This document shows positions 1 through 42,660 of a stretch of DNA of 64,000 bases, one piece after another (position 1 is the stretch's first letter; the number at the start of each line of letters is the position of its first letter). This DNA is from Xestospongia bergquistia (Eukaryota > Porifera > Demospongiae > Haplosclerida > Petrosiidae). The position numbers were made by a program, and so were the translations under genes. Below the pieces are notes generated by a model that did not search any database, was not told where the DNA came from, and saw nothing but the letters and a program-made list of their open reading frames with translations. The stretch covers positions 1,080,001 to 1,144,000 of the forward strand of contig OZ014420.1 of NCBI GenBank assembly GCA_963965975.1, read 5' to 3'.

Positions 1-212
1 TAATACATTGGATAATTGTAGTCAATTACCAAAGACATTGAATATATCTGGAAATTATACGTTTACTTGTTCCAGTAACTTTCTATTGAATAAGTCAGTG
101 ATCACTGGATATTATTCCAATAATGTCACAGTGATTGTTAAAGGTGAGATTTACAAAGATATAATCTTATTACTATAAAATTACCATAGGTCCTATACTT
201 CCAAATGTTCCC
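1..212 (+). repeat. Ig exon and flank duplicated (inverted) at 62022-62225
   Basis: The Ig-coding exon end (1-143), the AT-rich intron after it and the first about 23 bases of the next FN3 exon (190-212) match the reverse complement of 62022-62225 in the adhesion GPCR. Shared peptides include [21 protein letters not shown] and YYSNN followed by VTVIV or ITVIV. Both exons end in phase 1. The intron end TTACCATAG and the bases GTCCTA and CCAAATGTTCCC are also shared. The match runs into the window edge, so its true length is unknown. Confidence 0.9.
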
Positions 213-3200
213 AACATATTGAAAGTAACAGGCATTACACCTACTTCAGTTAATATCTCTTGGATAGTAACAGATGTTACATATACACCTGAAAACTATA
301 CTGTTCACTACAGCACATCTCTCAATAAACTCAGCAACATTAGTGATATTGTTAGAGGAACTACTGATATCAATGCATTTATTGAACTAAGAAACAAGAG
401 ATATTCTATTGTCCTCACTGATCTATATCCAGGTGTAAAATATAATTATTACATCTCTACAATCAACACTGTAGGAAGAGTTAACTCTAGTTATAGTAAT
501 TTTTATACCATAGATGCAGGTAAGAATGGTAATGTATAGTTAGTAATGTTACACTTTATTTTAGCACCATCTGGTGTACCACAATATTTCACTACTACTA
601 AAGTGACAGCAAATAACATTACATTTTCATGGCTTCCACCTTTGATACACTTAAGGAATGGCAACATAACTCACTATTCTTTAAGATGTAGTTATGACAA
701 CTCTACTGAAATCATCACTTTAGAACATCTTCAAATTCATGACACTTCATATTTATTGATCAATCTTCTACCTTACACTAACTATTTCTGTAATATTAGT
801 GCATTTACGAATGGTGGTGAAGGACCATCTGCTAACACTGTAGTGAGAACAAATGAAGACAGTAAGATGGTATATTTTTTAATTATTAGTATCATATTGT
901 CTTTCATAGTCCCAGGGATTCCATCAAATCTAAACATCAGTTTCATTAATTCCACTACCTTATTGCTATTCTGGTCACAACCATTAATACCCAATGGTAT
1001 TATCATTAAGTACACTATTAACTGTATAAGAGAGAACAATAAGAACCACACTGTAGTGACTAGTACTACAATGACACTAGTGTCAGATCTAAGTCCATAT
1101 ACTAACTACACATGTTCTGTATTTGGACACACAAGAGTTGGTATGGGACCACCAATAACAGGAATAGGTCTTACTGATGAAGATAGTGAGTACAGAATAC
1201 AGAGTAGCCATGTTAATTCATTTACTAATATTGTATTTCAGTTCCAGAACAAGTACAAAATGTCACAGTCATTATATTAAACAGTAGTACAGTTCATGTA
1301 CATTGGAGTAGTCCTTTTATTCCCAATGGTGTTATTATTTACTATGAGTTAAAGATATTTATTCTTGAAGATCTATTGGACACTCTTAACTCATCATTAA
1401 CTGACACTAATCATGTACTAGACATAACTCTAGGTAAGATATTGTTTGTGTTACTAGTTAATGTTCTGATCTAATAGATCCATTTATACCATATAATATA
1501 TCTGTGGCTGGAGCTACTATTAAAGGAAGAGGAGAAGTTGTTTCAAGTGCTGTGTTTTTTACACAACAAGGAAGTAAGATAGTTGTGATATATTTCTTAC
1601 TTTCAATTAACTTTTAGTTCCTCAATATGGTCCTCAGAATATAACAGGGAAATGGTTGAATGGAACATCTATTAAAGTTAGTTGGTTAGCTCTGACTCTT
1701 GTAGAGGCAAGAGGCTTCATTACAAACTACACTGTGACTGTACAACCTGTTCAGTTAACTAGTAGTAATAGGAAGAGAGAGGAGACTAGTAAATTATTAA
1801 AATTTACAACTTCATCATCTAATGAAACTAGTATTGTTATAACAAGTAGTTTAGATCCTACACTAGACTATGTAATATCAGTGTCTGCTAGTACTAAGAT
1901 TGGAGAGAGTACTAATAACACCAATATCACATTATCAGCTCTAGGTAAGACAAATAAAGCACTTATGTGTCACATCAGAGATTTTCATTCCTTTGTTTTT
2001 TAGACTTAATTACAACAACTTCAAATCTTCCAGTAGCAATATCTGTTAGCTTACTTGTTGCAACAATAATACTTCTTGTGATGATAATAATTATCATAAT
2101 AATAATGTTAGTTCATTTATTTTTATTTCAAAATTTTACATATGTTTGCCTTTCTGCAGTGTGAAATTTCAATATCATCATAAAAATGTGTTTGACAAGA
2201 AAGAAAACAAGAAATGTGAACATGAAGGAATCGAATTAAAAGAGAGTAAGTTATATTTTGTCATTGTATTTATATGTTGATGTATTTGCAAATGATCTTT
2301 TACTTGGTACATTATTATGCATTATTGAAATGTCTTTTATGTTTACATATGATGTTAATAATTCATTAAGGTAAACATGAATATGCTACTCTTAATATCA
2401 AAGAAGGTTAGTTGTGCCATTTGAAGATGTTTTATATTATTGAACACCACAGTGGAAACACATGAATATGATGACTTTAACTTTAAAGAAGGCTAGTTAT
2501 ATAATATATCATATATATATATAGTAAATTGTGTCAGCATGCTAAGTCTTACTGAGATATATTGTTAATTATAATATATACTTTTTACTAGATTCATATG
2601 TTATTATTATTATTTTTTTATTCATAATGTTATTAGATGGCAAACATGACTATACTGCTCTTAATATCAAACAAGGTTTGTTGATTTCATGTATCAATAA
2701 GATTTTGTTAAATACTATAGTGGAAATACATGATTATGACACTGTTCAGTTAAAGAAAGGTTAATTATGTAATATTGTATCCATTAAATGTTATGTTGAA
2801 TTAATAGAAGAACAACACGAGTATGATAATATTGAATTAAATCAAGGTTGGTTATCAATAAACCAATCTTATTTATACTTCTATTTGTATACTATACAGT
2901 TAATAAACCATTGTTTAATATTGTAGGCATACCATATGAAAATGTTGAAGTTATAGTTGAAGTCATGGACCATCCTTTATTTGAAGGTAAAATGAGTTAT
3001 CAATTGATATATACTATGATACTGAAAGATAGAACCCACATATGAAACAATGGTCTATGATCATGATATTGGTCATAACATTAATCCGAAGGACTTCTGT
3101 TCATTTTTTAAAAGTTCTCAACAGTTTCTTAAAAGTGAATTTAAGGTACACAATAAATGAGTCTTAAGTTTCAATTGTCTTTTTTATATGAAGGATATTG

Positions 3201-5324
3201 AAAAGTTTTCACAAATAAAGTCATCTGAGATTGGTATGTTACATCAGACAAAGAACCGGTTTCAAAACATTACTCCTTGTAAGTATACAATCATACAAAT
3301 TATTTAATTTTCTTCTCTCTTTTCAGTTGATGACAACGTTGTTCCATTATGTCCAATAGAAGGAGAGGAAGGATCAGATTATATCAATGCATCTTATGTT
3401 AATGTAAGTATATCATTAGTACTAATGACATATTGATATCTATATTACACAAACAGGGCTATAAAAGAAAGAATGCTTACATTGCAACACAAGGTCAATT
3501 ATAATCTGAGTTAATAGAAAACTCACATAACATTTGTCATTATAGGACCTCTACCAAATACAGTTGTTGACTTTTGGAGGATGATATGGGAATATAAACT
3601 ACCTACTATTGTTATGTTAATTGAAACAGGAAAAGTAAGTCAGTATTATTGTGATTCCAAAATTCTTTTGATTTGTTTAGCGAACATGTACTTGTTACTG
3701 GCCAGAACAGGAAGGCAATGAACAAGACTTTGGTCATGGTATCAATGTCACTCTACAATCAGTAAATGTGTATGAAGGATATACACAAAGAAAACTATTA
3801 ATTAGAAATGTAAATGTCGACTTCTTATTTTGACACTATTAACATTGACTATTATATATTTGCAGGCTAACAAAGGAGGTGTGTCATCTTTTGATGTAAC
3901 TCATTATCATTTTACTGAGTGGCCTGATCATGGAGTACCTACTGACAAGATGTATATGATTGAATTTATTGGTCATGTTCGTAAAGCACATCCTCCTGAG
4001 GGAGCTCCCCTTGTAGTTCACTGTAGTGCTGGAGTGGGAAGAACTGATACCTTCATTGTGTTAGATACTATGTTACAGAGACTGGAACAAGAAGAGAGTC
4101 TTAACATTTATGACTTCCTCTTAGAGATCAGACATCAAAGAGTTAAACTAGTTCAAACTGAAGTAAGTTATAATACACATCAAGTGTAATATTACATCTC
4201 TATATTATAGGCCCAGTATGTGTACATTCATGAGTGTCTATCAGAGTACATCCAATGTGGTAACACTTCCTTTCCTATCACTAGAACATATGATATTATC
4301 AGAGAACTCAGTCAGAGAAAGGAAGAAAAAAGTGGATTTGAAAGGCAATTTGAGGTTAGATTATAGAAATTGTTTCTAAATTATCCTTAATTTACAGCTC
4401 TTAAAAGAATTGTCAAACAGCACAACATCTCATTCTAATGTTCTAGAAAATTATTCTAATGCCAGCAAAGTTGATGTAGGAGATATTAATAAGCATACAA
4501 TACATTATATTTCTCTTATAGGGTTACAAGCAAAACTCAATGTTCGTAATAGCACAAGTGCCAATAAAGGAGACAGTATCTGATTTCTGGAAAATGATAT
4601 GGGAACAAGAGAGTAAAAGTATTGTATTATTGTGTACTGACAGTGTAAGTTAGTTGACATTAACTTATAATTGTTATAATGTGTTAAATATTATAGGAAG
4701 AGAACTGTCAATTTTGTCCAGATCTTGCAAATGAAGTAGTGACTTGTGAAAAGATCTCAGTTAAAATGGTATCTGAAGATCTAGAAACAGAATACACAAT
4801 AAAATGTCTTGAGTTAAATGAGGTACATACAAAATGAATGTTAGCAGTAACTGACATTAAAATATTTAGGATAATTCTGATCAGACAGTTTCAGTGAGTA
4901 TCTTCTGGTATAATAGCTGGTATGAACATACAAAACCACTGACTGGATCTTCACTTCTCAATATGTTTGATGCCATAGTTAAAAATCAAAGTAAAACTGG
5001 TAACAAACCTATTACTGTTGTATGCAAGTAAGTCATGTACTATATATATGTGTGTGAGTGTTGTATTTGTTAAAGTGATGGTGTTGGTAGAAGTGGTACA
5101 TTTGTGAGTATCTACTCTGAACTTGAGAGAGTAAAGAGAGAGGGAGTAGCTGATATATTTCAGTTCATAAAGAAAGCTAGAAGTCAGAGAGCAGGACTAG
5201 TCAAAGAAGTGGTATGTTCTAGTGTAGTAGATATAATAAGTGATAATATTGTTATTGTTAGGAGCAGTACATATTTTGTCATGAAGTTCTTGCAGAATAT
5301 GCAGAAGAAATGTCAAAATATTAG
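1..5324 (+). CDS. Receptor-type protein tyrosine phosphatase (Ig-FN3-TM-D1-D2), 5' partial
   Basis: This is a transmembrane tyrosine phosphatase cut at the left window edge. The exons I can splice encode the end of an Ig domain (to 143), then FN3 repeats (190-519, from 565, from about 915, from about 1242 and from about 1620), all joined by phase-1 introns. A single Ile/Val-rich TM helix lies at about 2020-2093. A basic juxtamembrane segment and tyrosine micro-exons (2371-2986) follow. Domain D1 has the WPD loop (TEWPDHGVP, about 3917) and the signature [12 protein letters not shown] (4018-4053), so it should be active. Domain D2 keeps a cysteine ([13 protein letters not shown], split by the intron after 5027) but has Val for the usual His, and [12 protein letters not shown] where the WPD loop should be. 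It is therefore probably regulatory. The C terminus is EEMSKY with a stop at 5322-5324. The architecture resembles LAR/PTPR receptors, but the FN3 sequences are too diverged to assign a subtype. Confidence 0.9.
2371..2986 (+). repeat. Array of tyrosine-motif micro-exons in the phosphatase juxtamembrane region
   Basis: Six small phase-1 exons lie in a row at 2371-2406, 2453-2491, 2637-2675, 2721-2759, 2808-2846 and 2927-2986. The first five are 36 or 39 nt and encode one module: [51 protein letters not shown] and [13 protein letters not shown]. The sixth has PYENV. The preceding exon ends with a tyrosine-less relative ([10 protein letters not shown]). The first pair and the second pair of exons are offset by about 267 bp with similar introns, so a two-exon unit was duplicated. 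Adjacent Y-x-x-hydrophobic motifs are separated by nine residues, which falls in the ITAM spacing range. The second exon has GC instead of GT at its donor (2492-2493). Reading through would reach TAG at once. Confidence 0.75.
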
Positions 5325-6617: not shown

Positions 6618-6785
6618 GTAAGTTTGTCTCTTCTTATATATATAGTGTAATAAATGCATTTACTAGTGATTTATTATATATAGTAGAGCTCTAAATAAAA
6701 AGACACTTTTCTATACCTTCATGAACCAAAGATATTAGTTATGAACAAGCTGTGTCATGGTGTCATCTTCTGACCTTTATTGTAG
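6618..6785 (+). other. Putative 5' UTR intron of beta-helix gene A
   Basis: A good donor (GAA|GTAAGT at 6618) and an acceptor after a pyrimidine stretch (CTTTATTGTAG ending at 6785) frame a 168-bp intron, 16 bp before the chosen ATG at 6802. The sister genes B and D have the same arrangement, which supports it. It also removes the in-frame upstream ATG at 6757 from the mRNA. Confidence 0.6.
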
Positions 6786-6801
6786 GCATATTGTTATCAA
6801 G

Positions 6802-9800
6802 ATGGCCACTGTTGTAACTTTACTATTGTGTCTACTACTGCAGTTAACTCATTCAATTGATATTTATCCAGATTGTAAACTGTCCTGTCAAACTAAATTG
6901 AATCAAACAAATGGTGCTACTCTCAACTCTGCACTAACTGTATTGGAATCTAACACAACACTGGTGTTACAGGAACCAGGTTGCTATTGTCTTGATAGTT
7001 TCTTTCTTTTCACAGACATATATAACATCTCTATCATTGGATCAGGAAGTACTGACGATTATATCATCTCTTGTAACAAAGATGTCGGCTTAGTGTTCAT
7101 TAGAACTGAAATCTTTCAGCTACAAAATATTACTATCAATGGGTGTGGTGTATCAGGAGACCATATTAGTCATATAACCTACGAGATAAGTCAATCTATT
7201 GTTATGTTTTATCATATCCCTTCCTCTATTGGATATGGTTTAGTGTTGGCTGATTGCAGTCATGTGACCCTTAAGAATGTAGCTATTGTTAATACAAAAG
7301 GGATTGGTCTTTTAGGTATTAATATCATAGGTACATCCATGTTTGATAGGCTTATGTTAAAAGATAACCATGCTCCATTGTGTTACTTTGAGTCAATAGA
7401 AAACATTACTTCAATGGAGACTATTGGCGGTGGTGCATTCTTGTTATATCAGGACTACATAGGTCCTGATAATAACTTTTTTGTTGTTCAGCTATCTATG
7501 AACGACATGTACATTTATAATAATTCCTATTGTGGATCCTTCAATAGAATATCTGCTTCTTACGAGGAATCTATTACTGCTAATGAAATTGGGTATACTG
7601 TTGGTTCTTCTGGCGGCATGGGAATTTCACTAGCTCAATTGAACTATTCTGTTAATGTCATGATAACATCATCTCAATTTAGTAACAATACTGGATGGGT
7701 CAGTGCTGGAATATATGTAGGAATATTTGAAGGAGCCAGAAGCTCTAGTATCAACATTTCAAATTGTGAATTTTCTAACAATGGATTCAAAGGCTATGAT
7801 TATCGTCCATTTGGAGTGGAGTCTGCTACTTCAGGTCTGTTATTGTTTAATAACCTTCATTTCCCTAATGAAACCATATACAACCTTTGCACCTTAGGCA
7901 AATTAAGTGATCTTGTATCAGTCAATGTTATGAACTCTGTTTTCACTGGAAACCAAGCTTATGTGTGTGCTGCAATGAAAATAAGTTCCTACAGATCACC
8001 ACTTGTCACCAATAGCAACCGGAATGTATTTCGATTAATAAATAGTATTCTTAAAAACAATCAAGGTGCTTTGGGACCTGCCTTTTGTGGAATAAGTGAA
8101 GAAACTTCAGGTTCTCATCCAAGTATGATAATGCAATTTGTTAATGTAACAGTAACTAGGAATAATGTTAACTCATTCAGTGATGGTATTCCTAATATGC
8201 TTGTCGAAAACTCTGGACAAATATTACTAGTTTCTGTCAATTTTACAATCAGTGGGAATTCATTGTTTGTAAACAATTCTGGTGTAGTTATAGTAGCTGT
8301 ATCAAGTGTAATCAATTTCTTTGACAATGTTATGTTTGTCAATAACAGAGGTGTGTTTGGAGGAGCCATTAGGATGTTGACTCGATCTTTTCTTGTCATT
8401 AAAAACCACACTAAATTAACGTTTTTAGATAATAAAGCAACAGTTCAAGGTGGAGCTATTTACTACACATCAGTATCATCTAATCCCTTAGTTGAACATT
8501 ATGACTGCTTCCTCTTCTTTGATTATGTTGATTTATTGTGTAATTTCTTCTCATGTCCTGATGTGTTAAATATGGATATCAATGTGACATTCTGTGGCAA
8601 TACTGCACCCCAAGGTGGCACAATATATGGATCAACTCTTAACAGTTGTCCTTGGTACTATCCACTAAACAAAAGCCTCAATTGCAGTAGTAACAATAAG
8701 ACTGCACTACAACTTCTGGCTTTAATAAGTGATAAGTTTTTTTTTGATCCTCTCCTTTTTAATGCAACTGTAATAAGTACTAATGCCGACAAATTGACTA
8801 TTGATGGATATAATAATACATCAGGACCACTTGAAGCTAGTCCAGGTCAAAGGTTATCTTTAACAGTCTTTGCATATGATGCATTTGGTTATCGTGCATC
8901 CACACCAATATCTTCTTATTCAAATGATAGTTCTGTCATCAGCACTCGTCTAGGTCGTTCAGTCTACTGGTTTGTTAGTTCTGATGATGACAATGGTACA
9001 CATGTACCATTAGAAGTCACTGGATTTGAAAACAATTTAGTCCATGTGGAATTGTTTTCTATTGATTCCTACTCGCAGACTGTTTTTGCTATACAGACAA
9101 GGAATTGTGGGGATGGATTTTATTATCTTGAGAGCAATTCTTCATGTGCTTGTCTTAAAGAATTACAGAATTATCATGTCAGTTGTGACATTAGGGCACA
9201 GACTGTTATTGTTCCTGATAACTCTTGGTTTGGGGAGTTAGATCAACAACCAGTGTATGCTGTCTGCTTCTACGACTACTGTCGCCCAGGCATTAAAAAT
9301 GTTTCAGCTTATGATCTGAACAATCAATGCAATATTAATTATAATCGTACTGGTTTAGTGTGTGGTAAATGTGTAGAAAACACTAGTGCTGTGTTTGGTA
9401 CCTCAAGATGTCGTGTATGTTCTAATTATGGTTTATTTTGGATCCCAGGTTTAGCTATAGTTGGAATTATTATAATCTTTGGCATTTCCTTTCTTGGGAT
9501 CACAATTACAGAGGGATACTTAAATGGCTTCTTGTTTTATTGTAATTGTCTCAATTATCTTTTTGTTTACTTATCACCCAATTATCCGCTAGATCATATC
9601 TTTACACCTATTGCTTGGGTTAATTTAGCAATTGGCATAGAATCCTGTTTCTATAATGGTATGACAACATTGGACCGTATTGGATTCAGGCTCATATTTC
9701 CATTCTACTTGTTTTTTCTAATGGCATTGATTATTTTAATGGCACGAAAGTTTAAGTATTTTGCTCGTTTAAATTTCTCTGCTAGTAAAACATTTGCGAC

Positions 9801-10665
9801 ATTAATTCTTGTTTGTTACTTCAATATTTTTGGCACATGTGTAGAAATACTTGGAGTTGCTCAAATCTTTTTTTTGCACGACAATGTTTCATACACTGGA
9901 TGGCTCCTTGATGCCTCTGTACCATATGGTCATGGCCTACATGCTCTGCTAATAATTGTTGCATTGATTTTGAGTCTGGTGTACATTCTACCACTGCCAA
10001 TTCTCTTTCTTTTTCCAAAACCACTTTATAGTTGGCGCTATACCTGCAAATTTAAACCAATATATGATGCGTTCTGGAATCCTTTTAAGCCCAAGTTTAG
10101 ATTCTGGCTTGGTGTACGAGCTCTACTTCGTTTTGTTCCATTTTTACTCAGTCTATATGTACAATATCCCAAAAATATTCTTTGTATGGCCATCTTTACA
10201 GGTATAGTATGGTTTGTACAGGAGCGTATCTCACCAATGGAAGGATACTGGCAAAACTCTTTCGACTCCTTTTTCCTGTTAAATCTAATACTCCTTTTAG
10301 TGGGCAACATTTATTTTGAGCCATTACAAGATGAATTCAAGCAGTACCCAATAGGATATAAGGTATTTGTCTATGTCTTATTGTGCAGTGCCTATATTGC
10401 TTTGTTAGCTATTTTAATAATTCATATTTTCATTCGATTCCCTAAGTTGAAACTGAAAATCATTCAAGTATATAATAATATTATCTCTCGAAGAAAACAA
10501 GCCTTAACATTGTCAACATCAATTAATGATGTGACTAGTGAATTGACTGAAACTTCTCCGACTGTTGAGAATCCTAAAGTAGTTAAGTTTTCTGAGTTAC
10601 GAGAACCTTTACTTGCTACTTTTGGTACAATGGATTTGAACACACATGAAGTGGTTACAAATTAA
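6802..10665 (+). CDS. Beta-helix ectodomain / multi-TM receptor-like protein, copy A
   Basis: A single-exon frame of 1287 codons, the most diverged of three tandem paralogs. I start at 6802 (ATGGCCACT) because it opens a signal peptide (MATVVTLLLCLLLQLTHS) just after a splice acceptor; 6757 is the alternative. About 650 residues follow with right-handed parallel beta-helix character: short repeats of the type F-x-x-N and GGAI, with many N-glycosylation sequons. Next come a beta-rich segment and a Cys-rich stalk (CGDGFYYLESNSSCAC, then NRTGLVCGKC ... CRVC). From about residue 890 to 1235 there are about eight hydrophobic helices, and the loop PIYDAFWNPFKPKFRFW lies between helices 5 and 6. A short charged cytoplasmic tail contains ELREPLL. 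I know this as a recurrent but uncharacterised layout; receptor, adhesion or channel roles are all possible. Confidence 0.8.
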   Translation: MATVVTLLLCLLLQLTHSIDIYPDCKLSCQTKLNQTNGATLNSALTVLESNTTLVLQEPGCYCLDSFFLFTDIYNISIIGSGSTDDYIISCNKDVGLVFIRTEIFQLQNITINGCGVSGDHISHITYEISQSIVMFYHIPSSIGYGLVLADCSHVTLKNVAIVNTKGIGLLGINIIGTSMFDRLMLKDNHAPLCYFESIENITSMETIGGGAFLLYQDYIGPDNNFFVVQLSMNDMYIYNNSYCGSFNRISASYEESITANEIGYTVGSSGGMGISLAQLNYSVNVMITSSQFSNNTGWVSAGIYVGIFEGARSSSINISNCEFSNNGFKGYDYRPFGVESATSGLLLFNNLHFPNETIYNLCTLGKLSDLVSVNVMNSVFTGNQAYVCAAMKISSYRSPLVTNSNRNVFRLINSILKNNQGALGPAFCGISEETSGSHPSMIMQFVNVTVTRNNVNSFSDGIPNMLVENSGQILLVSVNFTISGNSLFVNNSGVVIVAVSSVINFFDNVMFVNNRGVFGGAIRMLTRSFLVIKNHTKLTFLDNKATVQGGAIYYTSVSSNPLVEHYDCFLFFDYVDLLCNFFSCPDVLNMDINVTFCGNTAPQGGTIYGSTLNSCPWYYPLNKSLNCSSNNKTALQLLALISDKFFFDPLLFNATVISTNADKLTIDGYNNTSGPLEASPGQRLSLTVFAYDAFGYRASTPISSYSNDSSVISTRLGRSVYWFVSSDDDNGTHVPLEVTGFENNLVHVELFSIDSYSQTVFAIQTRNCGDGFYYLESNSSCACLKELQNYHVSCDIRAQTVIVPDNSWFGELDQQPVYAVCFYDYCRPGIKNVSAYDLNNQCNINYNRTGLVCGKCVENTSAVFGTSRCRVCSNYGLFWIPGLAIVGIIIIFGISFLGITITEGYLNGFLFYCNCLNYLFVYLSPNYPLDHIFTPIAWVNLAIGIESCFYNGMTTLDRIGFRLIFPFYLFFLMALIILMARKFKYFARLNFSASKTFATLILVCYFNIFGTCVEILGVAQIFFLHDNVSYTGWLLDASVPYGHGLHALLIIVALILSLVYILPLPILFLFPKPLYSWRYTCKFKPIYDAFWNPFKPKFRFWLGVRALLRFVPFLLSLYVQYPKNILCMAIFTGIVWFVQERISPMEGYWQNSFDSFFLLNLILLLVGNIYFEPLQDEFKQYPIGYKVFVYVLLCSAYIALLAILIIHIFIRFPKLKLKIIQVYNNIISRRKQALTLSTSINDVTSELTETSPTVENPKVVKFSELREPLLATFGTMDLNTHEVVTN

Positions 10666-11345: not shown

Positions 11346-11406
11346 GTAAGTAAGAGAATACGGTATATTGACATCTAATGTTTTTCTTTTTATAAATAGT
11401 TGGAAA
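11215..11406 (+). promoter_or_regulatory. Duplicated upstream block and 5' UTR intron of gene B
   Basis: The block around 11223-11245 (ATGACTACAGACATCCAATTATGG) resembles 15778-15796 and 16346-16373. It is followed by a short first exon ending CAAAG, an intron 11346-11399 (GTAAGTAAGAG ... TTTATAAATAG) and TTGGAAA before the ATG. The same order and nearly the same bases occur before gene D. Conservation in three places suggests promoter or leader function, though recent duplication alone could also explain it. Confidence 0.5.
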
Positions 11407-14400
11407 ATGATTGCTTATTATGCTCTGATACTGTTGACCCTTAAGTTGTTTGTAAAGGCTGATGAGTCTGTAGTGATTCCAGCTTATGAGAGTGACTGTG
11501 TTACAAAGAAAACAGACTTCTCTTACAACACCAGCCTGGATATACTGTTAAACATGTTAGAAAGCAATACTGAGTTAATTCTCTCTGTGGGCTGTCACAA
11601 GTTGACAGAGTATAGGTTAGTACGTAATTTAACTAATATTACACTCAAAGGTGAAAGTAATGAAGTAATTATTACCTGTGAAAGAGGAACAGGTCTAGCA
11701 TTTTTTAACATTTCTAACTTGGCTCTAGAAAATGTCATTATCAAGGGCTGTGGTTTAGTTGGCAATAAAAACTTAAGAGATGCACTTGCAGTAGTCAACA
11801 AGACAATAGCCATATTTCATCAGGTTATTGACAACACCAAAGTGGCCATGTTCCTTGCAGATATTGATGGTCTATCAATGAGGAATATGACAGTGAAAGA
11901 CAACACAGGAATTGGTGTATTAGCAATAAATATAATGGGCACTTCTCTCATAACAGAGGTAACATTCATGAATAACAAACCACCTAATTGCCCACTAAAT
12001 ACTAGTATCTATATTTTGTTAAATCAACTTGACAGTGTTGGAGGTGGAATGTACCTTATATATACTGATTATATTAATAACACAGATGTCTTAATTCCAT
12101 CACTTACAATCATCAACTCTGTTTTCCTTGACAATGAGCATTGTAATCCTTCTGAGGCTGTTCCTCTTGTTTATGAATTGTCATCAACTGTCAGAAAGGC
12201 AGGATTTATGATAGGAGGTGGAGGTGGAATGGGACTTATTCTCTCTCCAATTTATTTCTCTGTCAATGTCACTATTTTATATACTGATTTCAAAATGAAC
12301 AAAGGATTGTATGGAGGTGCTATTCATATCGATCAATATCAAGGATCAAGTGGGTCTCATATTTTTATTAATCATTGCTCGTTTGAAGAAAATGGCTTTG
12401 AACCTCTCTATTCACCTGATGGCATATACTCAAATGGTGGTGCTATTGCAGTTATTATGAATGTTGAATATCTGGAATACTTGGACAATTTAGAGAAGAT
12501 TTTTTCTGAACTAAAGCCAAACATTATATTAATTAGAAATTCTACTTTTGTCAAAAACAGAGGTATCACATCAGGAGTCTTGTATTTGTATGCACTAAAC
12601 TCACCATTGACAACAATAGAGAATGAAAATCAAGTCATATTCAGTGACTGCGAATTTAGCGAAAACATTGCCATTGTGTCACCTGTTTTAACTGCGGTTG
12701 AAAATAAATTTGATGCTAATGAACCTGGAGTACAACTACATATGCACAACATCAAAGTTTGCAATAACAGTGTTTCTCAGGAACAAGTTGATCTAAATGC
12801 TCATGATGCTATCATTGTTCTAATATCAATTAATGTAACTATTAGTGGTGATTCAGTATTCAGTAACAATGAAGGATCACCACTGTATACTGTTACAAGT
12901 GTTGTTAATATTATGGACAATGTGAGATTTGAAGACAACAGTGCCTCATCAGGAGGAGCAATATACCTCTTTACAAACTCTTTTATTGTTATAAAAGACA
13001 ACACTAACCTTAAATTTGTTAACAATTCAGCTACTAGATACGGAGGTGCAATATTCGTGCTATTACCTGGTACAGGAGCAGAATTTTCTGGCTTTAACAA
13101 TTGTTTTTTCTGGTTTGAAGAGATCGATTTCTATTGCAACCTCTTCACTAGCAATTGTACTGATCCAGGTACATTTAACATAACAGTGGAGTTTCAAGGT
13201 AACACAGCACCTTTAGGTACAGTTATGTATGGTTCAACATTACGAACATGTTCATGGTATACCCAATATAAAGAAAGGTATGGAGGTATGTCTGGGTTTG
13301 AACTTTTAAGCCATATACCAGGTGACAAATTCATATTTCAACCAGGCCTTGATAATAATCGTGCCATCAACACTGATGCCTTGTATCTTAATGTCTCTGA
13401 CATAGTTGGTAACAATGATAGTAATCCTATCTCTGTATTTCCAGGAGAGACAATCATTATCAATGTCACTGCACTTGATGGTCTTAATCAAACTGTACCC
13501 CTAGCTATTGCATCTCAAACATCTGCCAGTACTAATGGATCTTTCACATCATCACAACTAGGACTCTCTGGATATTGGTTTTTATCTGGTAATAATGTAG
13601 CAGAGCCTGTCCAAGCTACTATATTTGGTAGTAATAGCATCAATGTCTCTATTTCTCTTTATAGTATTACATCCTCTGCATCAGGTACTCTTTATGTTGA
13701 GCTTCAAGATTGTCTGTATGGTTTTGAATTTCGAAACGATTCTTGTGTTTGCAATCCTAATTTCCTACAAGAACATGATCAATTTGATGACTCATTTGTT
13801 GGGTGTAATCAAACTTCTGGTTATATTACTGTTTCACGATTCTTTTGGCTTGGAATGACTCCAGTGAACAAGTACACACTTCATTCTTGTATTATGGATT
13901 ACTGCACTCAAGGTGCAGTATCTTTTAGAGGAGAAGAAAACATTAATACTCAATGTGATAACAATCGAACTGGAATTCTTTGTGGTCAATGTGCAGGAGA
14001 ACTGAGTATTGTATTTGGTTCTAACAGATGTTTAACTTGTTCTACTGATGCAAGAATTTTTGGCTTCATTCTGTTATTTCTACTAATGGGCGTTGTTCTT
14101 GTTGTTGCTATAGCCTTCCTGAATTTCACAGTTACAGAAGGATATTTAAATGGAGTCATTTTCTACAGCAACATCATAAGCTTCTTTATACCAATGTTAG
14201 CACCTTTCATTGGTGATGGCACTGCTATCTTTATATTCATCTCATGGATCAATTTCGATCCTGGTGTGGAAACTTGTATCTATAATGGCATGGATTCTCT
14301 GGCACGAACAGGTCTCAGATTTTTGTTTCCATTATATTTATTTTTTTTAATGTTTGTGATTGTCTTCTTAGCTAGACGTTCAAAAAGAATTTCTAAGGCA

Positions 14401-15267
14401 GGGTTCTCAGCTACAAGAGCCTTTGCTACACTTTTGTTACTTTGTTATACCTCCATTGCAACAACATGTGTTGAATTGTTGAGTTTTATTAGAATTCATG
14501 GTCCCTCTGGTACATATGTTGGCTGGCGTACTGATCCTAATGTTATATATGGTAATAAAGTGCATGGTTTTCTAGTATTTGTAGCAGTGTGTTTCTTAGC
14601 ATTTTATATTATTCCATTTTCATTGATTCTTCTATGCCCACCGTATGTACTAAGTAGGACTAGACTTGGACAGTATTTAGTTCTACATTTCAAACCAATT
14701 TTTGATGCATTTTGGAATCCACTCAAACCCAAATTTACTTTTTGGATTGGATTTCGTTGTATAATTCGAATTGCTCCTTTGATTATTGCAGGAATTACCA
14801 ATTATCCTGATAATTCCTTTAGCATAGCAGTATTTGTAGCTTGCTTGCTCTTTCTTCATGAAAATCTTCAACCATTTCAAGGAAGAACTCAGAACAGAAT
14901 TGAAACATACCTCATGATAAATTTGCTCCTTTTGGCTATTGGAGGACTCTATTATCCACAGAAAGCAGAAGAGTTTGATGACCCTTCATCTGATTTCTAC
15001 ATCATCATTTTAGTTTTGTTTGCTTACTGTGGCTTCGTATTTGTTGTCATTCTCCATATACATATTCGATTTCCCCAAATATTGCCAACTTTTAAGAAAA
15101 CTTTAAAGAAATGTTACAAGTGTAGGTGTTGCAAGAAGAAAGAGAAATTAGATTATGATAATCATACTGAAAGTTCTGAGATAGATGAAATTCCTAAAGT
15201 ATCTTCTTCTGAACTCCGTGAATCTATTCTTGAAAGTGGTTTTTCATTGGTACCTTATACTGATTGA
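11407..15267 (+). CDS. Beta-helix ectodomain / multi-TM receptor-like protein, copy B
   Basis: A single-exon frame of 1286 codons. ATG 11407 is the first ATG after the leader intron and opens a signal peptide (YYALILLTLKLFVKA). The ectodomain has repeated beta-helix motifs (SSGGAIYLFTNSF, TRYGGAIF) and dozens of N-x-S/T sites. The stalk is Cys-rich (CLYGFEFRNDSCVC, NRTGILCGQC, CLTC). About eight TM helices follow, with PIFDAFWNPLKPKFTFW in the loop before the last helices, then a Cys/Lys cluster (KKCYKCRCCKKKEK) and an ELRESIL motif in the tail. It is very close to copy D over residues 1-200 and from about 600 to the end, but clearly diverged between. Function unknown. Confidence 0.8.
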   Translation: MIAYYALILLTLKLFVKADESVVIPAYESDCVTKKTDFSYNTSLDILLNMLESNTELILSVGCHKLTEYRLVRNLTNITLKGESNEVIITCERGTGLAFFNISNLALENVIIKGCGLVGNKNLRDALAVVNKTIAIFHQVIDNTKVAMFLADIDGLSMRNMTVKDNTGIGVLAINIMGTSLITEVTFMNNKPPNCPLNTSIYILLNQLDSVGGGMYLIYTDYINNTDVLIPSLTIINSVFLDNEHCNPSEAVPLVYELSSTVRKAGFMIGGGGGMGLILSPIYFSVNVTILYTDFKMNKGLYGGAIHIDQYQGSSGSHIFINHCSFEENGFEPLYSPDGIYSNGGAIAVIMNVEYLEYLDNLEKIFSELKPNIILIRNSTFVKNRGITSGVLYLYALNSPLTTIENENQVIFSDCEFSENIAIVSPVLTAVENKFDANEPGVQLHMHNIKVCNNSVSQEQVDLNAHDAIIVLISINVTISGDSVFSNNEGSPLYTVTSVVNIMDNVRFEDNSASSGGAIYLFTNSFIVIKDNTNLKFVNNSATRYGGAIFVLLPGTGAEFSGFNNCFFWFEEIDFYCNLFTSNCTDPGTFNITVEFQGNTAPLGTVMYGSTLRTCSWYTQYKERYGGMSGFELLSHIPGDKFIFQPGLDNNRAINTDALYLNVSDIVGNNDSNPISVFPGETIIINVTALDGLNQTVPLAIASQTSASTNGSFTSSQLGLSGYWFLSGNNVAEPVQATIFGSNSINVSISLYSITSSASGTLYVELQDCLYGFEFRNDSCVCNPNFLQEHDQFDDSFVGCNQTSGYITVSRFFWLGMTPVNKYTLHSCIMDYCTQGAVSFRGEENINTQCDNNRTGILCGQCAGELSIVFGSNRCLTCSTDARIFGFILLFLLMGVVLVVAIAFLNFTVTEGYLNGVIFYSNIISFFIPMLAPFIGDGTAIFIFISWINFDPGVETCIYNGMDSLARTGLRFLFPLYLFFLMFVIVFLARRSKRISKAGFSATRAFATLLLLCYTSIATTCVELLSFIRIHGPSGTYVGWRTDPNVIYGNKVHGFLVFVAVCFLAFYIIPFSLILLCPPYVLSRTRLGQYLVLHFKPIFDAFWNPLKPKFTFWIGFRCIIRIAPLIIAGITNYPDNSFSIAVFVACLLFLHENLQPFQGRTQNRIETYLMINLLLLAIGGLYYPQKAEEFDDPSSDFYIIILVLFAYCGFVFVVILHIHIRFPQILPTFKKTLKKCYKCRCCKKKEKLDYDNHTESSEIDEIPKVSSSELRESILESGFSLVPYTD

Positions 15268-16338: not shown

Positions 16339-16521
16339 TAGGAAGCCTCATGTGACCACAGGCATCCATTTATGGAGTAATTAATAACATTCTAGTGTAT
16401 TATTATGAACAGTCCATAACAATAGTTCATTGACTTCTTTCTCTAATGTTATTTTCAAGGTAAGTAAGAGATTACTGTACATTGAGATCTAGTGTCTTCC
16501 TTTTCTATAAATAGTTGGAAA
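16339..16521 (+). promoter_or_regulatory. Duplicated upstream block and 5' UTR intron of gene D
   Basis: CTCATGTGACCACAGGCATCCATTTATGG (16345-16373) is the third copy of the upstream block. A leader exon ends TTCAAG. The intron begins at 16460 (GTAAGTAAGAG) and ends at 16514 (TATAAATAG). TTGGAAA precedes the ATG exactly as in gene B. Confidence 0.5.
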
Positions 16522-19500
16522 ATGAGTGCTTATTATGCTCTGATACTGTTGACCCTTAAGTTGTTTGTAAAGGCTGATGAGTCTGTAGTGATTCCAGCTT
16601 ATGATAGTGACTGTGTTACAAAGAATACAGACTTCTCTTACAACACCAGCCTGGATACAATGTTAAACATGTTTGACAGCAATACTGAGTTAGTTCTCTC
16701 TGATGGCTGTCACAAGTTGACAGAGTATAGGTTAGTACGTAATTTAACTAATATTACACTCAAAGGTGAAAGTAATGAAGTAATTATTACCTGTGGAGGA
16801 GGAACAGGGCTAGCATTTTTTAACATTTCTAACTTGGCTCTAGAAAATGTCATTATTAAGGGCTGTGGTTTAGTTGGCAATAAAAACTTAAGAGATGCAC
16901 TTGCAGTAGTCAACAAGACAATAGTCATATTTCATCAGGTTATTGACAACACAAAAGTGGCCATGTTCCTTGCAGACATTGATGGTCTATCAATGAGGAA
17001 TATGACAGTGAAAGACAACATAGGAATTGGTGTATTAGCAATAAATATAATGGGCACTTCTCTCATAACAGAGGTAACATTTATGAATAACAAACCACCT
17101 TCATGCATTGGGTTTCTTGGTTTTGCAGGAGGTGGACTACTTCTTTTATACACAGACTATAAGAATGATAGCAATGTTCCAACTCCCACTCTTATAATTG
17201 CCAACTCTTATTTCCTTGATAACGAGCAATGTAGTGTTTTTGTTGTTGCCCCTCTTGTTTATAATTTGTCACCAAGTGTTAGGAATTTGGGATTTCGTTT
17301 GGGAGGAGGTGGTGGAATGGGACTAATTCTCTCTCCAAGTTACTTTTCTGTCAATGTCACTATCGTAGGAACTGAATTTAAAAAGAACAAGGGATTCAAT
17401 GGAGGTGGTATCCATATTGATCAATATCGAGGTTTGAGTGGATCCTATATTGTTATTGATGATTGCTCATTTGAAGAAAATGGCTTTGAGGATCTTTTTT
17501 CTCGTGATATGTTTATACACTCAATTGGTGGTGCCATTGCAATTATTATGAATATTGAATATAATAATGAGTTAGAGGGGAATGTTGAAGAAGTACAGCC
17601 AAATGTCATATTAGTGACAAATACCAGCTTTATTGAAAACAGAGGTTATTGGTCAGCTGGTGTTTTTGTGTATGGCCTAAACTCACCATTGACAACAATA
17701 GAGAATGAAAACCAAGTCATATTCAGTGACTGTGAATTTAGTGAAAACATTGCCACTCTATCACCTGTTATAACAGCAGTTGAGAAAAAATTTGATGCTT
17801 TTGAACCCGGAGTTCAACTACATTTGCACAATATCAAGATAAGCGATAACAAGGTTTCTCAGCTGCAACGGATAAATCAAGAAGCTCATGATGCTATTAT
17901 TACTTTAGCATCAATAAATGTAACTATTAGTGGTGAGTCTATATTTAGCAACAATAAAGCATCACCATTATTGTCTGATAAAAGTATTATTAATTTTAAG
18001 GATAACATACGATTTGAAAATAATAGTGCCACATCAGGAGGAGCAATAGTTGTTCTTACAGATTCATATCTGGTTATAAAAAACAATACCAACCTTAGCT
18101 TTGTTAACAATTTAGCTACTAGTTATGGAGGTGCAATATACTTTATTCGTTCTGGTCCTGGAATAGAGATCAGTGATTCAGGTTGCTTTATGTGGTTTGA
18201 GAAAATTGATCCTTATTGTGGTTTCATCACGCCAGATTGTATTGATCCAGGTACACTAAACATTACAGTGAATTTTAAAGATAATGTAGCACAGTTGGGC
18301 TCAACTATATATGGTTCTACATTACAAACATGTTCATGGTACAATCAATATAAAGTAAAGTATGGAGGCATGTCTGGGTTTGAACTTTTAAGCCATATAC
18401 CAGGTGACAAATTCATATTTCAACCAGGTCTTGATAATAATCGTGTCATCAACACTGATGCCTTGTATCTCAATGTCTCTGACATAGTTGGTAACAATGA
18501 TAGTAATCCTATCCCTGTATTTCCAGGAGAGACAATCATTATTAACCTTACTGCACTTGATGGTCTTAATCAAACTGTACCCCTAGCTATTGCATCTCAA
18601 ATATCTGCCAGTACTAATGGATCTTTCACATCATCACAACTAGGACTCTCAGGATATTGGTTTCTACCTGGTGACAATGTAGCAGAGCCTGTCCAAGCTT
18701 CTATCTTTGGTAGTAATAGCACCAATGTCTCTATTGCTCTATATAGTATTACATCCTCTGCATCTAGTACTGTTTATGTTGAGCTTCAAGATTGTCTGTA
18801 TGGTTTTGAATTTCGAAACAATTCTTGTGTTTGTAGTCCTGACATCCAACAAGGACATGACCAATTTGATGACTCGTTTGTTGGGTGTAATCAAACTACT
18901 GGTTATATTACTGTTCCACGATTCTTTTGGTTTGGAATGACACCAGTGAACAAGTACACACTTCATTCTTGTATTAAAGATTACTGCACTCAAGGTGCAG
19001 TATCTTTTAGAGGAGAAGAAAATGTTGACACTCAATGTGATAACAATCGAACTGGAATTCTTTGTGGTCAGTGTACAGGAGGACTGAGTATTGTATTTGG
19101 TTCTAACAGATGTTTAACTTGTTCTACTGATGCAAGAATCTTTGGCTTCATTCTGTTATTTATACTAATGGGAATTGTTCTTGTTGTTGCTATAGCCTTC
19201 CTAAATTTTACAGTCACAGAAGGATATTTAAATGGAGTCATTTTCTACAGTAACATTATAAGTTTCTTTATACCAACTTTAGCACCTTTTATCGATAAAG
19301 CCACTACTATCTTTATATTCATCTCATGGATCAATTTCAATCCTGGTGTGGAAACTTGTATCTATAATGGCATGGATTCTCTGGCACGAACAGGTCTCAG
19401 ATTTTTGTTTCCATTATATTTATTTTTTTTAATGTTTGTGATTGTCTTCTTAGCTAGACATTCAAAAAGAATTTCCAAGGCAGGGTTCTCAGCTACAAGA

Positions 19501-20379
19501 GCTTTTGCTACTCTTTTGTTACTTTGTTATACCTCCATTGCAACAACATGTGTTGAATTATTGAGTTTTATTAGAATTCATGGTCCCTCTGGTACATATG
19601 TTGGCTGGCGTACTGATCCTAATGTTATATATGGTAATAGAGTGCATGGTTTTCTAGTATTTGTAGCAGTGGGTCTCTTAACATTTTATATTATTCCATT
19701 TTCATTGATTCTTCTATGCCCACCATATGTACTTAGTAGGACTAGACTTGGACAGTATTTAGTTCTACATTTCAAACCAATTTTTGATGCATTTTGGAAT
19801 CCACTCAAACCTAAATTTACCTTTTGGATTGGATTTCGTTGTGTGATTCGAATTCCTCTTTTGATTATTGTAGGAACTACCAATTATCCTGAAAATACCT
19901 TTAGCATAGCAGTATTTGTAGCCTGCTTACTGTTTCTACATGAAACTCTTCAACCATTTAAAGGAAGAGGTCAGAACAGAATTGAAACATACTTCATGAT
20001 AAATTTGCTTCTCTTGGCTATTGGAGGACTCTATTACCCCCGGAGAGCAGATGAGGATTTCGATGATCTTTCATCTGATTTCTACATCATAATTTTAGTT
20101 TTGTTTGCTTACTGTTGCTTTATATTTGTCGGTATTTTTCATATTCATATTCGATTTCCCCAAACTTTGCCAGTTCTTAAGAAAACTGCTATGAAATGTT
20201 ACAAGTGTAGGTGTTGTAAGAAAGAAGAAAAAAAAGATGATACCACTGTTCCGACAACAACAATTACCATTGAAAAAAAAGATATAATTATTCCCAAGGT
20301 ATATAATGCTTCCTTATTGCGTGAACCTTTACTTGAGTGTGGGGGAAGTATTTTATTAACAGAAATAACAACAAAATAA
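16522..20379 (+). CDS. Beta-helix ectodomain / multi-TM receptor-like protein, copy D
   Basis: A single-exon frame of 1285 codons, the closest paralog of copy B. ATG 16522 follows the leader intron and opens the same signal peptide as B. It has the same order of parts: beta-helix with GGA motifs (SGGAIVVLTDSYL, SYGGAIYF), stalk with CLYGFEFRNNSCVC and NRTGILCGQC, about eight TM helices, the PIFDAFWNPLKPKFTFW loop, a KCYKCRCCKK cluster and an LLREPLL tail motif. The tail motif is shared with copy A (ELREPLL), which hints at a cytoplasmic interaction or sorting signal. It differs strongly from B at about residues 205-460, with changed loops and insertions. The stop lies only 66 bp from the stop of convergent COQ4. 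Function unknown. Confidence 0.8.
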   Translation: MSAYYALILLTLKLFVKADESVVIPAYDSDCVTKNTDFSYNTSLDTMLNMFDSNTELVLSDGCHKLTEYRLVRNLTNITLKGESNEVIITCGGGTGLAFFNISNLALENVIIKGCGLVGNKNLRDALAVVNKTIVIFHQVIDNTKVAMFLADIDGLSMRNMTVKDNIGIGVLAINIMGTSLITEVTFMNNKPPSCIGFLGFAGGGLLLLYTDYKNDSNVPTPTLIIANSYFLDNEQCSVFVVAPLVYNLSPSVRNLGFRLGGGGGMGLILSPSYFSVNVTIVGTEFKKNKGFNGGGIHIDQYRGLSGSYIVIDDCSFEENGFEDLFSRDMFIHSIGGAIAIIMNIEYNNELEGNVEEVQPNVILVTNTSFIENRGYWSAGVFVYGLNSPLTTIENENQVIFSDCEFSENIATLSPVITAVEKKFDAFEPGVQLHLHNIKISDNKVSQLQRINQEAHDAIITLASINVTISGESIFSNNKASPLLSDKSIINFKDNIRFENNSATSGGAIVVLTDSYLVIKNNTNLSFVNNLATSYGGAIYFIRSGPGIEISDSGCFMWFEKIDPYCGFITPDCIDPGTLNITVNFKDNVAQLGSTIYGSTLQTCSWYNQYKVKYGGMSGFELLSHIPGDKFIFQPGLDNNRVINTDALYLNVSDIVGNNDSNPIPVFPGETIIINLTALDGLNQTVPLAIASQISASTNGSFTSSQLGLSGYWFLPGDNVAEPVQASIFGSNSTNVSIALYSITSSASSTVYVELQDCLYGFEFRNNSCVCSPDIQQGHDQFDDSFVGCNQTTGYITVPRFFWFGMTPVNKYTLHSCIKDYCTQGAVSFRGEENVDTQCDNNRTGILCGQCTGGLSIVFGSNRCLTCSTDARIFGFILLFILMGIVLVVAIAFLNFTVTEGYLNGVIFYSNIISFFIPTLAPFIDKATTIFIFISWINFNPGVETCIYNGMDSLARTGLRFLFPLYLFFLMFVIVFLARHSKRISKAGFSATRAFATLLLLCYTSIATTCVELLSFIRIHGPSGTYVGWRTDPNVIYGNRVHGFLVFVAVGLLTFYIIPFSLILLCPPYVLSRTRLGQYLVLHFKPIFDAFWNPLKPKFTFWIGFRCVIRIPLLIIVGTTNYPENTFSIAVFVACLLFLHETLQPFKGRGQNRIETYFMINLLLLAIGGLYYPRRADEDFDDLSSDFYIIILVLFAYCCFIFVGIFHIHIRFPQTLPVLKKTAMKCYKCRCCKKEEKKDDTTVPTTTITIEKKDIIIPKVYNASLLREPLLECGGSILLTEITTK

Positions 20380-24900: not shown

Positions 24901-26778
24901 TTAATACAACATACATATACTCCTTGATCAGCCATTTGAACCTCAGGTATAACTAACTCTTGTTTGGTACCATATATCAGAGCTTCTCCATTACGGAACC
25001 ACTGGTATTCTAATGTTCCAGGACCGCTTGCTTGGCATGTGAGAAAGAGCTTTTGCCCAACTTCTAAAATTTGAGGTTGTGGGTGATCATTAATTACTGG
25101 GGTATCTGTATATGTGTGTGTTATGGAAGGGAAAGTGAGAGAGGAGGTGAGGTAATACATTAGGTGCATATATGAAGGATGATATACCTTGATTCAAAGC
25201 TCCATGAGGGACAGGCCCTAAAAGAAGGAAATAGAAACTGATACAAGAATATTCCCAATAACCAATTACTATAGTATAATATATGATTTAGTAATGACTA
25301 TATTACTACTATAATATAATATATATTTATATAACACTAATAGTATAATATATGACTTAGTAATGACTATATTACTACTATAATATAATATATATTTATA
25401 TAACACTATAGTATAATATATTACTTAGTAATGACTATATTACTACTGCAATATAACATATACTCACTAAGGCATAATATGCTATATACTCTACCAGACT
25501 ATCATTACACTAACTGCTACAGTATAATGTGTGGCATGATAGAACTGTCATTATTATGATCATTATACCTTTCTTTGGTATAGGACTAGTCACCTTTACT
25601 TCCACCCATTGACTAAAAACAAAATTAGCTTCATTTTCAGCACGACATACATACAGTCCACTATTTTCCATGGCAATCTAGCAACAAAGATACTCATCAT
25701 ATCTAAAGATACATCATATCTCATACATTTTCTATCACAAGTCTCGGTCCTCTTTGATCCATCAATGGAGTTTGACCTTTAAACCACATATATTTAGGAC
25801 GAGGTACACCCTCAGCACGACATTCAAGTTCTACCTTTTGTCCTATCATCACAGGAGTGGAAACCGGCTGTTTAATGATACGTACATCCTCTGGGAAGTA
25901 ATAAAAGTTATGTAGTAAGTTATCTACTGAAGCAATAACTTTCACTATGTCACTAAAATTAATTACTACATGTACCTGTACAACATGTAACATGTATACA
26001 TGTACATGTGTATAAAATCTAACACGTACATTTACAACCTACATATGTACACAAGTTTTGTTTACAAGATAAGTAGTAATTAGGTGCATGAATAGTTAAT
26101 AAAAAACCCAGGGACATTCCATTACATCATAACAAAATAGGACTTGTTACGCCATGATTTCCTAACTTAGAATATGACGACGGAGTAATCATGTCCCCTC
26201 AACTATTGATGATGTAATGCTTTAATAATGGGAAAATCCTGATTCGTCTATTTTGGATCTGTCTATTAAATTAATAAGTGTTATGATTATATTTTAGAAG
26301 TGAAAAACAAGACAAAATATATAAAGGTAATAATGGGGAGATGTAAACAGTAGACAAAACATAAATAAATCTAATAAATGTTACAATATTAAAGGGAAAG
26401 ACCCTTATACCTTTCTATAGCATATATACTAAGTAATATAGCAATATTCAACTCACCTTTATAACCCAATTGGACAAGAGCCTCATACATCTGGAGTTTC
26501 TTTAAATGGGCCACCAACTCTTCATAACTTGTACCTCGATTACTCATATCTAGTAATAACGAATAGCCTGGACTACCGTTTGGTTTGGTAGCACTAAGGC
26601 CAAAATTCTCCACTGTGATGGAGTTGTAATCCATTTCACGTGCCAGCTCTCGCCAGTAAGCTGTCTTGCCATCTTTCAGGAGGTCCAGACGGTCAGCGAG
26701 GTCTTTCATAGCCTTGTAAGGCAAGTCACTCATCATATTGTTCTCTGTAGAAGTTCTAGAGCTTTTTTTTGACGCCAT
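21919..26778 (-). CDS. MALT1-like paracaspase (death domain, Ig, caspase-like protease)
   Basis: A type-1 paracaspase, the Arg-specific protease of NF-kB signalling complexes in vertebrates. The first exon from 26778 (MASKKSS) encodes a death domain (about residues 16-110: PYKAMKDLADRLDLL, YWRELAREMDY). Two Ig domains follow (25721-25890 with the next exon near 25600; 24850-25110), then Pro/Gly-rich linkers (24465-24820). The caspase-like fold at 23501-23940 has the catalytic His in FFFAGHGFE and the Cys in LLDMCR. A third Ig-like segment lies at 22550-22740. The C terminus is Q- and P-rich (QQQQQ ... APPPPGHLF), with a stop at 21919-21921. The proline-rich linker between Ig2 and the protease and the polyQ tail differ from the vertebrate layout as I know it. 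I see no clear TRAF6 motif. The gene has many short introns, several with local tandem repeats. Confidence 0.88.
24296..24440. repeat. Degenerate tandem repeat in a paracaspase intron
   Basis: Units containing ATTATGAAGTATTGAGTATGAAGTAATGA recur about every 60 bp, with variants such as GGAATGTGAAGTAATGAGACTGGAGTATGA. The repeat is intronic. Confidence 0.6.
25265..25480. repeat. Three-copy AT-rich tandem repeat, unit about 70-75 bp
   Basis: The unit begins TAGTATAATATATGACTTAGTAATGACTATATTACTACTATAATATAATATATATTTATATAACACTA. Three copies run in a row, the last diverging after TACTACTGCAATA. It lies in an intron of the paracaspase gene between the two Ig exons. Confidence 0.85.
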
Positions 26779-26924
26779 ACTTCTTTTAAAGTGAGAATAT
26801 GATCAGTTCTAAGTCAGATTTCTTGTAAATAGCAACCTTATTGGGATATCCCTAATTACATCATGGACACACCCACATCCTAGTTTAATATTATTCATTG
26901 ATATGGAAGTATTTTTAAAGTTAA

Positions 26925-42100: not shown

Positions 42101-42660
42101 CTAGGGAAAGAAGAACTTGTTCTTTAGCCTGACACTTCTCTTCAAATCCAACTAGAACAATTGTCAGATGCTTTTCATACTTTGATCTTATACGAGTGTC
42201 ATTTAATAGCTCATAAAGTTGGACTGGATCACTGATATGCTCAAAACTCACTTCAACAGACTCTTCTGTGCTGCCATTTGGATCAGTTATAGTCTGTCCA
42301 GCAGTTTCGTACTCGACTAAAGTGGTTGCAATTCTTTGCTGGATACGTTCTAGGGAAATTAGTGTCTCCTCTTGCTTGCGACGTTTCTTTGCTTCTTCCT
42401 CTTGTAACAAGATCTATTATAAGAACATATTGCATGAGTCAGGAAGAACAACTATTATATAATATGTATGTATCAACATCACTACAAAAAGTTTACAGAA
42501 AATGACTGCAAACACAAAGTATTTTGCAGCATTTGCACATTTTTCAGCTGTCAATGTACTAAATAGTACAATATACTTCATCAATAACTGTCCTTGAATT
42601 TACCTTTTGTGCTGGATCCAGATCAAGTATATCATTAAGATAGACCACTTTCAGCGACAT
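39126..42660 (-). CDS. Large coiled-coil protein, unrecognised
   Basis: Two exons: 42604-42660 (MSLKVVYLNDILDLDPAQK) and 39126-42413, together about 1114 residues. Much of residues 130-520 is heptad-like coiled coil rich in E, K, Q and L (for example KLEKALVKAQDEVQKMTTTL). Acidic linkers follow (EEEGEIEAEEVEKIEEEDRE). A second helical region lies at about 640-900. The last 200 residues are Pro/Ser/Arg-rich (RRTPLSPSIITRKRVLESGQ) and probably disordered. The single 3.3-kb coding exon is unusual next to its intron-rich neighbours. Cytoskeletal, centrosomal or ciliary roles would fit, but I cannot name a family. The ATG lies 224 bp below the RPAP2 stop. Confidence 0.8.

Follow-up and report, generated by a model that had tools for sequence, protein, structure and literature searches.

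Tandemly duplicated symmetric exons encode a candidate SH2-docking juxtamembrane segment in sponge receptor phosphatases

ITAM receptors are read by Syk and ZAP-70, the consensus being two YxxL/I motifs with a narrow spacing of six to eight residues (x6-8), and GRB2 prefers YxN sites. The cytoplasmic exons of PECAM-1 are not known to be copies of one module. They are alternatively spliced, and variants without exon 14 fail to bind SHP-2 (PMC5664058). ZAP-70 and CD3 epsilon provide an example of ITAM reading (PMC3507883), and ITAM-type signalling has been discussed for the allorecognition receptors of ascidians and cnidarians (PMC12065747). Among the receptor phosphatases themselves, the R3 members PTPRJ, PTPRH, PTPRO and PTPRB, together with a member from a sponge, have predicted YxN sites in their tails, for which a docking role has been proposed (PMC5336234). 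Regulated exon skipping, measured by RNA, is described for kinase genes of Capsaspora, where it often falls inside domains (PMC3870316). Among the titles and abstract openings listed by word searches of an open-access library, none names a receptor phosphatase whose array is repeat-built like the one presented here.

This array occurs in a gene (gene A) of the sponge Xestospongia bergquistia, lying in a stretch of 64,000 nucleotides that we call the window (C10:1080001-1144000, C10 being contig OZ014420.1) in a genome of 146.5 Mb on 21 contigs. Our spliced model of the part of gene A in the window begins at position 190, exons further upstream (including window 1-144) being outside it, and runs open through 28 exons, specifying 1,203 residues and a stop. 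Pfam recovers five FN3 stretches (fn3, E 1.6e-50) and two Y_phosphatase stretches (E 4e-128) in this model. In window coordinates, its features are as follows:

190..1944, forward strand: FN3 ectodomain part, six exons, open in the spliced model, with the five FN3 stretches (Pfam)
2004..2106, forward strand: membrane-helix exon, its hydrophobic stretch judged by eye in the spliced model without a TM predictor
2160..2245, forward strand: JM1, the first juxtamembrane exon, its final 10 residues module-like without a tyrosine
2371..2406, forward strand: module exon M1, 36 nt, phase 1-1, donor GTTAGT
2453..2491, forward strand: module exon M2, 39 nt, phase 1-1, GC donor (GCTAGT)
2637..2675, forward strand: module exon M3, 39 nt, phase 1-1, donor GTTTGT
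2721..2759, forward strand: module exon M4, 39 nt, phase 1-1, donor GTTAAT
2808..2846, forward strand: module exon M5, 39 nt, phase 1-1, donor GTTGGT
2927..2986, forward strand: E6, exon with PYENV, 60 nt, its tyrosine 11 residues past that of M5
3033..3145, forward strand: E7, exon with TYETMVY, a positional match by eye to the YQNV exon of array-less paralogues
3194..5324, forward strand: exons for the two PTP domains, D1 with HCSAGVGRT and WPD, D2 with VCNDGVGRS

The receptor phosphatase context given in the original prediction is borne out by the five FN3 and two PTP stretches and by HCSAGVGRT: gene A has the ectodomain, the membrane helix (by eye) and the HCx5R signature in D1 of a receptor protein tyrosine phosphatase. 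In a comparison with a set of solved structures, the best relatives of its PTP part are PTPRS, PTPRA and LAR. With two PTP stretches, it falls outside the R3 subtype, which is defined by a single PTP domain, and it has the FN3 and two PTP components of the R2A (LAR) type, the Ig region of which would fall upstream of the modelled part. The array had been described as a tail; it sits instead between the membrane-helix exon and the first PTP domain and is hence a juxtamembrane segment.

Elsewhere on the forward strand of the window, three adjacent frames run without a stop for about 1,300 codons each (6745-10662, 11350-15264 and 16486-20376), and the second and third of them begin alike; a PMP-repeat match (Pfam) passes its cut-off in the second frame, falls just short of it in the first, and is not found in the third. 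A cytochrome P450 stretch (Pfam) occurs on the same strand at 32255-32701. On the reverse strand are a stop-free frame of 1,095 codons (39129-42413) that matches no Pfam family at E 0.001, and stretches assigned by Pfam to a Death domain (26392-26802), a secretin-type 7TM (57335-58090) and an Ig domain (61092-61490).

Each of the exons M1-M5 is preceded by AG, has phase 1 at both ends, and encodes one module of the form (H)(E/D)Y-x-x-(L/F/V/I), so that the five phase-1 exons of 36-39 nt, one module apiece, are found just where they had been predicted; the loose exon scan also gives many unrelated exon-like stretches on both strands of the window. In the spliced product, the tyrosines take the relative positions 3, 16, 29, 42 and 55 in the modules, 66 in PYENV, and then 86 and 91. 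The expected period of exactly 13 residues thus holds for M1-M5 in the spliced model, followed by steps of 11 and 20, and PYENV is supplied by the sixth exon (2927-2986, 60 nt), as had been proposed. The name micro-exon, applied at the outset, does not fit: a size range of 3-15 nt is given for that class in PMC4739763, versus 36-39 nt here. The earlier account had also passed over the donor of M2, which is GC and not GT.

Exon duplication accounts for the regularity of the array, and chance is therefore not the rival to be weighed. Alignment of the M1-M2 unit, intron included, with the M3-M4 unit yields a score of 51 versus a maximum of 24 in 2000 simple shuffles, and the offsets between the units are 266 and 268 bp, which agrees with the prediction that a two-exon unit was duplicated about 267 bp apart. 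Among single exons, the pairs M1-M3 and M2-M4 score 23 and 19, the other scored pairs 8 to 16.5. The match of the introns alone between the two units is equalled by 3 of 2000 shuffles, and the intron M3-M4 aligns with the intron M4-M5 at an equal or better score; since other intron pairs are equally similar, the introns do not single out the pairing of M1-M2 with M3-M4, and it is the exons that do so. Being alike beyond chance and symmetric in phase, the neighbouring exons have the hallmarks of tandem exon duplication. In our best explanation, a small symmetric exon was duplicated in tandem, which gave the receptor phosphatase a longer juxtamembrane segment.

A search of the whole genome at the DNA level locates the array at four places, and a search for the single exons, using a query in the correct frame, recovered the same four:

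Window, forward strand: gene A, 5 modules
C10 1054.2-1057.5k: gene B, 5 modules
C10 1071.7-1074.6k: gene C, 3 modules
C10 1224.6-1222.0k, reverse strand: gene D, 3 modules, the end of the second PTP domain not found adjoining

Looking for the module in other receptors of this genome hence brings up three further phosphatase genes with the array. None of the four segments matches a Pfam family above its cut-off. A protein search with the module array gave nine places, eight of them inside A or B; the ninth, at C13:4863703-4863912, is a weak match (26%, E 0.0036) in an open frame of 218 codons.

Receptor phosphatase genes, at least 14 in number and with a near-identical catalytic exon, cluster on both strands of C10 between 973k and 1247k. 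In the stretches surveyed for paralogues (C10:960001-1154000 and 1190001-1250000), 14 genes have the long first-domain PTP exon, a count that leaves aside places near 1031k, 1044k, 1218k and 1230k with the second PTP part only or without the long first-domain exon. Among the ten array-less genes, three of which were inspected by eye, five have a single YQN(V/I) at the similar place and five have none in the 2.4 kb scanned. In a tree built from one first-domain PTP exon of 99 residues (14 sequences of this exon, partly of 83-96 residues, with supports of 0.57-0.95), the array genes do not form one clade, and D joins two array-less genes (support 0.92; both 83-residue matches). A single origin of the array is unsupported by this one-exon tree, in which gene conversion may have played a part. 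Judging from these sequences, one gain with losses, gene conversion, and repeated gain are all possible histories.

Across A-D, the Y-x-x-hydrophobic motif is retained in 15 of the 16 module exons and an E/D residue precedes the tyrosine in 13 of them; at the position of the end of JM1, gene C has CENEKYELKD. For M3-M5, the three modules shared by all four genes, constraint is significant in three of the six gene pairs, namely A-D (dN/dS 0.103/0.665, Fisher p 0.0009), B-D (0.114/0.854, p 0.0002) and C-D (0.155/0.780, p 0.003), and not significant in A-B (p 0.13), A-C (p 0.18) and B-C (p 0.09), the p values being uncorrected and the pairs not independent of each other. These data bear on the idea of a near-neutral process, whereby symmetric exons multiply harmlessly in a flexible linker and their tyrosines have no special role. 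Consistent with it, M4 of gene B has lost its tyrosine (HDNDTV) and M2 of B has the same GC donor as in A, which together make single modules seem dispensable; moreover, gene D has lost the E/D before the tyrosine in both M4 and M5. The three pairs without significant constraint also speak for it, as does the nucleotide identity between A and D, which is about equal in the module exons (96/114 aligned) and the introns (142/171 aligned), such that the greater identity of exons over introns that we looked for in this pair is not seen. In E6 the A-D identity is lower (43/60), and most gaps are in the introns. However, the constraint in all three pairs involving D, the retention of the motif in all but one module exon, and the persistence of four arrays without any stop or frame break argue against mere drift of the linker, and we regard near-neutral multiplication as unlikely.

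The reading that we favor, and hold to be rather probable, is that the array is a modular SH2-docking juxtamembrane segment of a receptor phosphatase, which would act once phosphorylated. Each copy of the module would contribute one acidic-Y-x-x-hydrophobic site that, when phosphorylated, docks an SH2 protein; the modules, along with the probably older YEN(V/I) site of E6, would then make up a platform with several docking sites, next to the PTP domains of the receptor itself. The exon anatomy, the duplication, the open frames, the four genes with three or five modules and the candidate reader genes are seen in the sequence; phosphorylation of the modules, their binding of SH2 domains, and any change of their number by splicing are inferred.

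The genome encodes several proteins that could read such sites. Among solved structures, ZAP-70 and Syk are the best relatives of two SH2 stretches at C5:8491401-8494700, downstream of which lie kinase pieces that are seen as separate pieces. SH2-kinase genes were also found in the genome, and a tandem cluster of SH2-plus-kinase genes, many of which have the SH2 and the kinase in a single open frame, lies at C6:1621k-1697k. Two SH2 matches occur just upstream of a PTP match on the same strand at eight places, and at seven of these the whole set is contained in a single open frame; one of the seven was set against solved structures and aligns with SHP-2 along its length (655 bits). At C6:199640-201523, a set of two SH2 and a PTP is found in pieces. 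The SHP-2-like places (C3:1265k-1283k, C3:916k and C7:8318k) have the look of an intron-poor expansion, and six of these eight cluster together on C3.

These SHP-2-like frames raise the possibility of a more specific, inhibitory or adaptor-type role, in which the tyrosines, above all that of E6, would attract phosphatases of the SHP-2 type or an adaptor of the GRB2 type (YxN sites YDNI and YENV). The presence of YEN(V/I) at E6 in all four array genes points this way, as do the seven open frames with two SH2 and a PTP and the YxN sites predicted in R3 tails, that of a sponge included (PMC5336234). Yet, the ITIM-like motif (S/I/V/L/T)xYxx(I/V/L) is found only at E6 of A, B and D, with none in C or in the modules themselves. 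We therefore take this role to be a possible one, though on balance doubtful.

The neighbouring modules had also been likened to ITAMs, and this comparison holds only in part. We defined a strict ITAM-like pair as two YxxL/I motifs at the narrow spacing of x6-8 or a wider one of x6-12. In the full form of A there is none at either spacing: M2 and M4 end in F or V, and hence no pair of neighbours is YxxL/I twice. The pair formed by M5 and E6 does qualify in the full forms of the other three genes, as YDSI-x7-YENI in B, YDII-x7-YENI in C and YDVI-x7-YENI in D. Strict x6-12 pairs turn up in 3.6 to 5.3% of shuffled segments, which makes these YxxI-x7-YxxI pairs suggestive but not strong. Relaxed YxxPhi pairs at x6-12 number five in A and three each in B, C and D, figures matched in 0 to 0.2% of 5000 shuffles. 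The ITAM family of Pfam was not detected in A at E up to 1 nor in B, C or D at E up to 10, in a search whose HMMER filters drop most weak matches. Going by these motifs, the clearest candidate ITAM-like site is the M5 and E6 pair in three paralogues and not the 13-residue array.

Module number differs between genes, and it possibly differs between transcripts as well. All 80 exon combinations across A-D (32, 32, 8 and 8) are free of stops, including the 32 of A, so that skipping is frame-safe as originally claimed. At least one strict x6-8 pair is present in 0/32 forms of A, 21/32 of B, 5/8 of C and 5/8 of D. A strict x6-12 pair arises in 8 of the 32 forms of A, each time where modules of the L/I type become neighbours: there are none in the full form, one without M2, one without M4 and two without both. 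Hence, one might envision a splice-switchable ITAM, wherein the skipping of M2 and/or M4 in A creates YxxL-x9-YxxL/I pairs readable by a Syk-like tandem-SH2 kinase. The alternation of M1, M3 and M5 (L/I type) with M2 and M4 (F/V type), the resulting rise from zero to two strict pairs, the GC donor of M2 in both A and B, the Syk/ZAP-70-like SH2 domains encoded in the genome, and the x7 pair at M5 and E6 of B, C and D are all in line with such a switch. Against it, a spacing of x9 lies outside the narrow consensus, which no form of A fits; B, C and D already have a pair in their full forms and would need no switch; and strict x6-12 pairs also arise in the shuffled segments, at the frequency given above.

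The splice sites add a further consideration. The donors of M1-M5 match the U1 consensus at 8, 7, 7, 7 and 7 of 9 positions, compared with a mean of 6.8 for the other 22 exons, the GC of M2 being scored as one mismatch only. Weak donors, which we considered as a sign of alternative splicing, are thus not a feature of the modules overall (one-sided p 0.88); the sequence accordingly makes no overall argument that exons are skipped, M2 with its GC donor being a possible exception, and this too tells against the switch. A T at donor position +3 occurs in 5/5 modules versus 2/22 other exons, an excess due to shared descent, and upstream pyrimidines number 8-11 of 17 for the module exons and 6-16 for the others. 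On the whole, we give the splice-switchable ITAM little chance. Its fuller version, in which splicing of the phosphatase (of M2 first, via the GC donor) would switch it between a platform of the SHP/GRB2 type and a Syk-recruiting array with one or two YxxL/I-x9-YxxL/I pairs, appears more improbable still.

If the array is a docking segment, as we favor, then the paralogues with three or five modules would illustrate how the docking capacity of a phosphatase grows by exon duplication, in a genome that also has SH2 domains like those of Syk and, as potential readers, several SHP-2-like proteins. Set against known systems, gene A shares tandem PTP domains with the R2A phosphatases LAR and PTPRS, which are among its best solved relatives, and we know of no repeat-built juxtamembrane tyrosine array in these. 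With the R3 phosphatases, as described in PMC5336234, it has in common an FN3 ectodomain, a receptor PTP and (predicted) YxN-type tyrosine docking sites; however, R3 members have one PTP domain with the sites after it, whereas A has two, with a duplicated array before them. PECAM-1 is not a phosphatase, and its splicing is a reported one, whereas that of A is a possibility. With the Capsaspora kinases, A would share a link between exon skipping and phosphotyrosine signalling genes, measured by RNA and often inside domains in the former, and in A inferred and placed in a linker. Finally, ITAM receptors share with these genes the Y-x-x-hydrophobic pairs, and with B, C and D the YxxI-x7-YxxI form, but the pairs of the array in A are spaced by x9, have F/V in every second module, and are borne by a phosphatase. 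Were splicing to tune this array, ITAM-type logic could be put to a direct test in a sponge phosphatase, in addition to the allorecognition receptors of ascidians and cnidarians where such signalling has been discussed (PMC12065747).
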